Of a stretch of 64,000 nucleotides of DNA, positions 1-31,095 are shown piece after piece. This stretch comes from Gemmata massiliana (lineage in GTDB: Bacteria; Planctomycetota; Planctomycetia; Gemmatales; Gemmataceae). The translations under genes were made by a program, and so were the position numbers. Position 1 is the stretch's first letter, and each line of letters begins with the position of its first letter. The notes beneath the pieces were generated by a model. That model was not told the DNA's origin. It worked only from the letters and a program-made list of their open reading frames with translations, and searched no databases. The stretch spans positions 1,086,632-1,150,631 of the forward strand of contig HG799464.1 of assembly GCA_000531095.1 (NCBI GenBank), read 5' to 3'.

Positions 1-288
1 GGGTCCACTCGCGAGGTCCGCAACCACCGAACCGAGGTACTTCTGCAAGGTGTCGCGAGCCGAGGCCTGGTCCCACCGTGCGGTGACCAGGAACTCCTGG
101 AGGGTTCGGACCGCGGTCCCGGCTTCGAGTGCGATGGGCTCAATACTCTTACGCGACAGATCGGACAGCAACCCGCGGCAATATGTGCCGAAGTGCTTGG
201 CCGTACGGTCCTGGCCCAAGTGCCCTCGGAACCGTCTAAGGTATGCCGCGAACGCCGGACCAAGGGCCACGATCTCCCGCTCGGTCAT
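1..288 (-). CDS. IS701-family transposase, N-terminal part
   Basis: This is the first ~96 residues of a DDE transposase; the gene continues past the left edge. The ATG at 288 follows a GGAGG ribosome-binding site. The translation contains the family's typical N-terminal stretch, with GLLSDLSRKSIEPIALEAG and then TLQEFL. It is homologous to the transposase at 29646-30945. Identity over bases 6-209 is complete, but the first ~80 bases differ at many positions, so the two copies look mosaic. Near base 5 the sequence reads GTGGACCC where the other copy has GTGACCC, so the reading frame may shift at the window edge. Confidence 0.85.
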   Translation of the reverse strand, partial: MTEREIVALGPAFAAYLRRFRGHLGQDRTAKHFGTYCRGLLSDLSRKSIEPIALEAGTAVRTLQEFLVTARWDQASARDTLQKYLGSVVADLASGP

Positions 289-344
289 CGGTAATCCTCC
301 CCGATGAACAGCTTACGGAACGCTGGAAAACCCGCGCTGTACTG
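1..344 (-). mobile_element. IS701-family element, 5' end (partial, runs off the window)
   Basis: The outer inverted repeat lies at 329-344; read inward on the minus strand it begins CAGTACAGCGCGGG, the same end that bounds the complete element at 28714-30960. The four bases outside it (345-348, TTAG) fit the YTAR target known for the IS701 family. The transposase starts about 55 bp inside the end. The other end is outside the window. Confidence 0.85.
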
Positions 345-28543: not shown

Positions 28544-28757
28544 CGTAGTCCTCTGGACCGCTCAGGAAAAATCGCTTCGCGCGAGTCCGGGGTGCGGTAG
28601 TTCGTCGGCCGCCCTTACCCGCCTTGCGGCGGGCAGCGAGCGCGGACTGCACATCTCGGAGAGACGGGCCGCCCTGTCACTACGCCTCGGTCGCCCGAGG
28701 GTCGCTACCTTAGCAGTACAGCGCGGGTTCTCGAAGCTATCTAAATGCGAAGCCGGG

Positions 28758-29543
28758 TCATTTGGTCACGTCGAACGGCGTTGGGGTTAACGCCACCGTG
28801 TTGTCCGCCCGGGCAGTAATTTCGATCGGCGTTCCAGCCCGGCCATCCTTCCCGCCCTTGATCCCGACGTTCTCGTGCCAAAACACGAGGCGGTACTTTC
28901 CGGCTGGGGCGTTCCGGATCTCGAACTTCCCGTCCGCATCAGTGACCGCGTAATACGGGTGGTCGAAGACCCGCATGGCACCGCCCATCCACGGGTGGAT
29001 GGTGCACTTGAAGTCGTAAACCGTGGTAGCCTCCTCGATCAGCGGCTTCGGCATTCGCCACTCGCTCTGTTTGGCGACGGGAGTACCGATTTCGAGCTGA
29101 CCGGAGCCGTAGAAGTTGTGGGCTATCGGATCGGCGTTCCGGACCACGACAGTATCGCCAACTCGGGCGGTCGAGACGTGCGGAACGAACCGGCAGCCCT
29201 TCATCTCTACTACCACATCCCGAGGCTTCCGCTTCGCGTCATCCGGGTGGATCTCGTGCGGGGCGAACTTCGCTTTAAGCTCGGTTCTGTCGGGCCGCAG
29301 CCACACGACCACATCCCGGACCCCGCGGCTCTTCGCGCCCACGACCACGCGCTCGTCGAGGAGGGGGCCGTCCTTGAGGCAGTGCGGCTTGTCCTGAGCG
29401 ACCTCGGCTTGCTTCTGCTTCGGGACGGCCACCTCCGCCGGCAACACCACCTGGCCGCTTACTGCCACCCACTTGGCCGGGGGCTGGGCATCCGCGCGTG
29501 CCGTAAGGCCAATCGTGAGCAGTACGCCCGTGACGAACCGCAT
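28758..29543 (-). CDS. Secreted cupredoxin-domain protein (IS passenger)
   Basis: The 261-residue protein has a signal peptide (~1-20, ending ADAQPP). A type-1 copper domain has His in DPIAHNF and the loop CTIHPWM, giving the Cys, His and Met ligands. A C-terminal beta-sandwich like the carboxypeptidase regulatory domain follows (TDADGKFEIRNAPAGKYRL). It resembles proteins labelled methylamine-utilisation or plastocyanin-like, and probably carries electrons or copper in the periplasm. The ATG at 29543 follows GAGGGAGTTACG. It lies wholly between the ends of an IS701-family element, only 44 bases from the left end. Confidence 0.88.
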   Translation of the reverse strand: MRFVTGVLLTIGLTARADAQPPAKWVAVSGQVVLPAEVAVPKQKQAEVAQDKPHCLKDGPLLDERVVVGAKSRGVRDVVVWLRPDRTELKAKFAPHEIHPDDAKRKPRDVVVEMKGCRFVPHVSTARVGDTVVVRNADPIAHNFYGSGQLEIGTPVAKQSEWRMPKPLIEEATTVYDFKCTIHPWMGGAMRVFDHPYYAVTDADGKFEIRNAPAGKYRLVFWHENVGIKGGKDGRAGTPIEITARADNTVALTPTPFDVTK

Positions 29544-29645
29544 CGTAACTCCCTCGCGTTTGCCCCGCCCACGGGTGAATTCGTCGCCCGTACACTGCGT
29601 CTTGTCCGCTGGCAGACTGAGTACATTAGTACCAGGGGGATAGCG

Positions 29646-30945
29646 ATGACGGAACAGCAAATCGTGGGCGTCGGGCCAGCGTTTGCGACCTACCTCAGGC
29701 GGTTCCGCGGTTGCTTCTCCCAGAACCGTACGGCCAAGCACTTCGGCACATATTGCCGCGGGTTGCTGTCCGATCTGTCGCGTAAGAGTATTGAGCCCAT
29801 CGCACTCGAAGCCGGGACCGCGGTCCGAACCCTCCAGGAGTTCCTGGTCACCGCACGGTGGGACCAGGCCTCGGCTCGCGACACCTTGCAGAAGTACCTC
29901 GGTTCGGTGGTTGCGGACCTCGCGAGTGACCCGTTGGGCACGGTTGGGGTGATCGACGAGACCAGCTGCCGCAAGTGGGGCGATCACACGCCTGGGGTTC
30001 AGCGCCAGTACTTGGGGTGCGTGGGCAAGGTCGATAACGGGATCGTGACGGTCCACCTCGCGGTGGCGAAGGGGACATTCCAGGCCCTGTTGGACGCCGA
30101 CCTGTTCGTCCCCAAGGCGTGGGCCGCCGACCGGGACCGGTGTGAACGGGCCGGCATCCCCGACGACGTTGGGCATCAGACCAAGTGGCGCTTGGCGATC
30201 GACCAGTGGCTCCGCGCGACCGGCAACGGGTTATCATTCGACTGGCTCACGTTCGACGAGGGGTACGGGGCCGCGGTCCCGTTCCTGAAGTTCCTGAGCC
30301 TGGTGAACCAGCGGTTCGTGGCCGAGGTGCCGGTCAACTTCCGGGTCCGGGACACGGCTGAAGGCCGTTCCCGACGGGCGGATGCCCGGTTGCCCGCGAC
30401 CGACACGCGGAGCGGGACCCGGCACCGGGTGGCCCACCGGACCGTGCGGGCCTCGTTCTGGCGGGTGGCGACCGCCGCCGTGTGGGTGGCGGATCGGGTC
30501 CACACGTTGGTCGTGGCCGTCAACGAGAACACCGACGAGGTGAAGTACTTCCTCACCAACGCGACCACGGCCACCCGAGCCCGGGTGCTGGCCGTGGCGT
30601 TCCGGCGCTGGACCGTGGAGCACGCGTTCCGCCTGGGGAAGCAGGAAGCCGGATTGATGGACTACGAGGGGCGGAACTACACCGGGCTCCTTCGGCACCT
30701 GACCCTGGCCTTGGTCGTCCTCGGGTTCGTGGCCACTCACACGCAACGGCTCCGGGGGGAAAAATCCGCAGGTCACAGCCGAACAGGTGTGCCGGGCTCT
30801 GAACCAGCGGTGCGCGGTCGCGTTCCGGCAGAGGAGAGGCGTTCCCGAGGTGCGACACACCAGCGACGTCATCGGTTATCACCAGCGGCGGAACGCACAG
30901 GCCGCCAAGTCTCACAAGAAACAACGGCACAGATCCTTGCTCTAA
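29646..30945 (+). pseudogene. IS701-family transposase with a frameshift
   Basis: The DDE transposase has D in GVIDETSCRKWG, D in LTFDEGYG and E in VEHAFRLGKQEAG. The expected C-terminus (PQVTAEQVCRAL, HTSDVIGYHQRRNAQAAKS, stop at 30945) is in a different frame from the body. The shift lies in GGGGGGAAAAA near 30757-30768, where one base fewer would restore the frame. This may be a real mutation, slippage at the homopolymer, or an assembly error. The ATG at 29646 is preceded by GGGGGATAGCG. Confidence 0.88.
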
Positions 30946-31095
30946 ATCCGCGCTGTACTGTTAGGACCGTCATAGTTACAGGCGCCGAAGCACCTGACGA
31001 GTTTGTAAGCCCCCACTGTTGGGCGCGAAGCGGGGAAAAGACACAGCAGGGGCAGTAGAGGTTCACCACACGTTCGCCCCTTCTCGCTGCTGCTC

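Follow-up and report, generated by a model that had tools for sequence, protein, structure and literature searches.

A Cupredoxin Gene Carried within an IS701-Family Insertion Sequence in Gemmata massiliana

Organization of the Locus

The window analysed here is a stretch of 64,000 nucleotides from Gemmata massiliana (assembly GCA_000531095.1, contig HG799464.1, positions 1,086,632 to 1,150,631). An IS701-family element of 2247 bp occupies positions 28714–30960 of the window, with 16-bp inverted ends that match at 15 of 16 positions and with TTAG on both sides. The features of the element and of the region that it interrupts, with the evidence for each in brackets, are as follows.

28574–28713, minus strand: half of the interrupted target, a conserved region predicted to be structured and non-coding (five-genome alignment and consensus fold; strand from the fold)
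28710–28713, no strand: left TTAG copy of the target duplication (sequence; four relatives have one TTAG where the site is empty)
28714–28729, plus strand: left terminal inverted repeat, CAGTACAGCGCGGGTT (sequence and repeat search; further copies in the genome have identical ends)
28758–29543, minus strand: passenger gene for a 261-aa, apparently secreted cupredoxin-like protein with putative ligands H142, C180, H183 and M186 (complete ORF; weak Pfam Cupredoxin_1 and amicyanin matches; amicyanin structure alignment)
29588–29645, plus strand: candidate for a decayed inner left end, with a spacing of 58 bp to the transposase start, compared to 54–56 in plain copies (shuffle test; 9/13 match to the end sequence)
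29646–30764, plus strand: zero-frame part of the IS701-family transposase, with likely DDE residues D104, D204 and E325 (NCBIfam NF033540; Pfam DDE_5; six-copy alignment)
30753–30764, plus strand: conserved CGGGGGGAAAAA run, likely the site of recoding into the +1 frame (shared, with the frame change, by nearly all the copies compared, ~10 genomes)
30766–30945, plus strand: conserved C-terminal part of the transposase, +1 frame (frame comparison of copies; protein conserved between genomes)
30945–30960, minus strand: right terminal inverted repeat, AATCCGCGCTGTACTG, or CAGTACAGCGCGGATT read inward (sequence, repeat search, other copies in the genome)
30961–30964, no strand: right TTAG copy of the target duplication (sequence; empty site)
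30965–31031, minus strand: other half of the interrupted target (same alignment and fold; together with the left half it contains a ~35-nt segment resembling 23S rRNA)

The outer ends paired as inverted repeats at 89% over 19 nt (I2), and the ends of the element can be written as CAGTACAGCGCGG[G/A]TT. No other pair of such ends with matched flanks around a transposase was found within the window. When CAGTACAGCGCGG was set against the published IS701 consensus, ---YACT-Y--YR, which its source paper calls unrepresentative of the whole family, Y-A-C fitted at positions 4–6 and position 7 was A, not T. The target duplication is 4 bp, as in the IS701 family, with TTAG here and YTAR in the sister copies. 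At window positions 1–344 (G000:C3:1086180-1086975) the high-copy IS occurs a further time, largely as an N gap; the left end of this copy closes at 344 and is followed by TTAG.

The first-pass annotation had described matched ends and a TTAG on each side, enclosing a transposase gene and, on the opposite strand, a complete gene for a secreted cupredoxin. The sequence, the ORF and the profile matches bear out that description.

The Transposase and Its Frame Change

The assignment of the transposase to the IS701 family in the first-pass annotation was upheld by a score of 294 bits against the NCBIfam IS701 profile (NF033540), whose cut-off is 150, but the gene is not one simple ORF, as the last ~60 residues lie in the +1 frame. 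Residues D104, D204 and E325 were invariant across the alignment of six copies, and from the family we infer that their role is catalytic.

In these transposases the last ~60 codons follow a conserved G6A5-6 run. Nearly every copy examined, from ~10 genomes, had the CGGGGGGAAAAA(A) run and then a conserved +1-frame C-terminus (VTxEQVCRALN...YHQRRN...KSHKK); in L144 the transposase is encoded in one continuous frame. The run has been kept in copies that spread recently (G024), and programmed recoding, by slippage or frameshifting, is for this reason favoured over a broken gene. Recoding at the CGGGGGGAAAAA run is therefore likely, as judged from the copies compared, and we found no report of such recoding for IS701 in the literature searched. 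A single-ORF transposase has been reported for IS701 members; it is not a strict criterion, and most copies of this subgroup differ from it in having the C-terminus in the +1 frame.

The Cupredoxin Cargo Gene

Profile and structure matches gave weak but consistent support for the cargo ORF encoding a cupredoxin. The protein aligned with amicyanin structures, ligands included, in the pattern H142 ... C180-x-x-H183-x-x-M186, so that all four type-1 copper ligands are present. Its N-terminus resembled a signal peptide on inspection. A sigma-70 promoter scan identified no promoter, a type of scan that says little in this phylum.

Most genomes of the family encode relatives of this protein (77 of 95 at E<=1e-30). 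The closest stood at 51–56%, with none nearer than ~56% over most of the length, and a wider phylum sample of 392 genomes held no closer cupredoxin at E<=1e-65 outside the G. massiliana genome itself. In the tree, the window cupredoxin joined L112 of genus g37 (support 100/97) and, moderately, L123 of the same genus (93/87), and it fell outside the clade formed by the copies of the host genus, including the host's own C4 copy. As the gene groups with genus g37 and not with own-genus orthologues, it was most likely acquired from outside rather than duplicated in place. The terminal branches of the tree are long, which limits the naming of an exact donor.

Plain Copies and Sister Elements

The first-pass annotation had proposed a search of related genomes for the unit without the cupredoxin gene, and such plain copies of about 1370 bp were present in ~10 genomes of Gemmataceae. 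They measured 1369–1371 bp, marginally under the published IS701 range, and divergent ones reached 1539 bp; approximately 20 near-identical plain copies were found in G024 alone. Short copies of 359–852 bp were considered as miniature elements and rejected, as they contain N runs and represent full copies that were incompletely assembled.

In the plain copies the left end lies 54–56 bp from the start codon, and transposase position 373 lies 196–197 bp from the right end. By the same measure the window copy had 932 bp on the left and 196 bp on the right, which places the cargo wholly on the left side. The cargo accounts for the 2247-bp size of the window copy, which has 876 bp more than the plain form, placed after the left end and before the transposase.

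Two further IS701 elements with cargo were identified, each having its additional DNA on the right, whereas that of the window element is on the left. The one in L141, from the same genus, is 1889 bp long, is flanked by TTAA on both sides and has 714 bp on the right with a SUKH/SMI1-KNR4 gene (L141:3733-4203). The SUKH proteins are a family of immunity proteins. The element in L157, from Limnoglobus roseus, is 4361 bp long, is flanked by CTAA on both sides and has 736 bp on the right with a DUF4279 gene (L157:6153-6611); its transposase is split by a nested insert of 2.4 kb. No other cupredoxin was found between IS ends among the loci fetched. A nested ORF in L144 (L144:1488-2707) was rejected as cargo, being an ISAzo13-type transposase between the IS701 transposase and the right end.

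The Insertion Site

Insertion is proved by the empty site found in four relatives, rather than by the TTAG repeat. In four of 18 other genomes of the same genus (G010, G016, G017 and G018) the flanks of the element are joined at a single TTAG, with 79–85% identity across the junction and no sequence between the flanks. All well-defined insertions of this IS group sit in YTAR (TTAG, TTAA, CTAA or CTAG), and two random YTAR sites would agree with a probability of ~0.32. As a consequence of this site preference and of chance agreement in about one case in three, the matching TTAG is weak evidence of unit insertion when taken alone.

These findings bear on several claims of the first-pass annotation. 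It had read the duplication as showing that the whole unit moved; insertion as a unit is supported, but by the four empty sites. The empty TTAG sites whose search it had proposed were thus present, and the case that it had named as contrary to its reading, a cupredoxin gene at this locus in relatives lacking the IS ends, was looked for by flank search and not encountered, the four empty-site genomes having no cupredoxin there. By this reading the element would mobilise the gene; no further copy of the 2247-bp unit was found in the same genome or among 95 genomes of the family. With a single copy known, renewed movement of the unit together with its cargo is something that we infer. Empty sites were also searched for the L141 and L157 elements, and no clean one was found.

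The region that the element interrupts, of ~207 nt, is present in single copy and conserved in five genomes of the genus, being intact in L137, L138, L139 and L140; a related sequence was found in one other genus (G094; L272). Over 35 nt it matches the 23S rRNA of these bacteria at 94% identity, within what we take to be the I-CeuI region. The consensus fold contained 68 pairs, 12 of which were altered in both partners in one or more of the sequences, and was closed by GCTTCGCGC/GCGCGAAGC; its covariation term was neutral (+0.4), from five sequences only. Rfam returned no family at gathering level for this region and only implausible ones below it. From the predicted fold, the interrupted target looks like a structured RNA that has not been described before.

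Origin of the Unit

We consider it highly probable that an IS701 IS took up a complete cupredoxin gene in the interval separating its left end from its transposase gene, and was then inserted as one 2247-bp unit at TTAG. This reading is supported by both ends, the duplication, the empty site, the plain 1370-bp form and the foreign affinity of the cupredoxin. In the mechanism that we propose, a second left end would have come to sit beyond a cupredoxin gene adjoining an IS copy, trapping the gene; the outer left end would then have become the working end and the inner one would have decayed. The transposase would act on the two outer ends whatever DNA lies between them, so that the cargo moves along, and the cargo gene would have a promoter of its own and be expressed divergently from the transposase.

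An inner left end that had decayed, lying where the spacing of plain copies predicts, would fit the model of two left ends. The candidate, CCGTACACTGCG compared to CAGTACAGCGCG, gave shuffle p values of 0.002–0.06 against most reference ends, with 0.14 as the highest, for the weakest one. Three 13-mer matches as good as this one (9/13) occurred in ~900 positions, two of them elsewhere in the cargo, and the candidate is suggestive only for this reason.

An unlikely alternative is that a plain IS was inserted at TTAG and the cupredoxin gene entered later by another route, with no movement as a whole unit. The single copy of the unit, absent from the 95 family genomes, is compatible with late entry, and all that the empty sites establish by themselves is that the relatives lack whatever lies between the two TTAGs. 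However, the edges of the cargo have neither a duplication nor the ends of another element. Late entry of a gene into the 56-bp left region would also have broken that region in two, yet the sequence preceding the transposase continues to look like an intact left end. Two other IS701 elements, moreover, hold cargo inside matched target duplications. It is far less credible still that the cupredoxin was a resident gene with an IS on one side and a stray IS end on the other. Solo ends do occur in the genome and YTAR flanks would be identical by chance about one time in three, but this explanation is refuted by the four relatives in which the flanks meet at one TTAG with no gene between, and the nearest kin of the cupredoxin is in another genus.

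The draft state of the assembly raised the question of whether a left part bearing the cupredoxin and the right part of a different IS copy had been joined through their common transposase core. Two core stretches, 29725–29991 and 30648–30840, are essentially identical to the high-copy IS of the genome where comparable, and just outside them there are differences at 26 of 88 and 34 of 120 positions; the transposase may thus be a mosaic or affected by assembly, through gene conversion or draft gap filling. Other IS copies in the draft contain N runs and, in one case, a leftover loxP linker, which is likewise compatible with such joining. We regard this artefact as very improbable, since the outer flanks adjoin in four other genomes, so that both ends belong to one insertion, and since the links from left end to cupredoxin and from cupredoxin to transposase start lie in sequence unique to the window copy. 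The mosaic pattern leaves the ends, cargo and junctions untouched. The loxP sequence, a 34-mer located in an IS copy close to an N run at about 593611 of G000:C1 (L033:1466), is probably a mate-pair linker left by assembly.

Comparison with Known Elements and Significance

Uptake of the cupredoxin gene and insertion as a unit, our preferred reading, gives an element that resembles the IS701 family in having a DDE transposase above the NCBIfam cut-off, a 4-bp target duplication and a plain form of ~1.4 kb. Members of that family are reported to be 1400–1550 bp long with a single ORF (PMC2266710, PMC11092175); the window element differs in its 876 bp of cargo and in the conserved recoding of its transposase. 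The IS231 subgroup of IS4 is known to hold complete genes in extra DNA that separates the left inverted repeat from the transposase (PMC2266710); it belongs to another family and has 10–12-bp duplications, a YREK motif and hosts in the Bacillus cereus group. In 2008 this passenger layout was seen in IS231 and not in other families, perhaps for lack of search (PMC2266710). That passenger genes are uncommon in IS701, as the first-pass annotation held, agrees with these reports (PMC2266710, PMC11092175), but two more cargo-bearing IS701 elements have now been identified in Gemmataceae.

The name transporter IS, or tIS, was later given to ISs with cargo (PMC3129680, PMC9330008), in which a single IS carries cargo unrelated to transposition within one pair of ends; tIS is a descriptive class. 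Here the cargo at 28758–29543 lies inside one pair of IS ends with a target duplication, and the window element is by its structure a real IS701-family transporter IS. It shares with a composite transposon the presumed movement of a host gene by IS ends, but has one transposase, one outer pair of ends and at most a decayed inner end in place of two ISs. We found no IS701 example of a transporter IS in the literature searched; as that search left out ISfinder and most subscription journals, novelty is provisional.

Tentatively, and with slightly less than even confidence, we suggest that this IS701 subgroup in Gemmataceae is a modular gene carrier like IS231, which would repeatedly have acquired accessory genes (cupredoxin, SUKH immunity-type, DUF4279) to the left or right of the transposase and would spread them between genera, its transposase being made by programmed recoding. 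These results extend the carrying of cargo, known for IS231, to an IS701 subgroup for which comparison can draw on the plain form, on empty sites and on alternative cargoes. Such elements may offer a simple route for copper-protein and immunity-type genes between planctomycete genera, where the mechanisms of transfer are little known.
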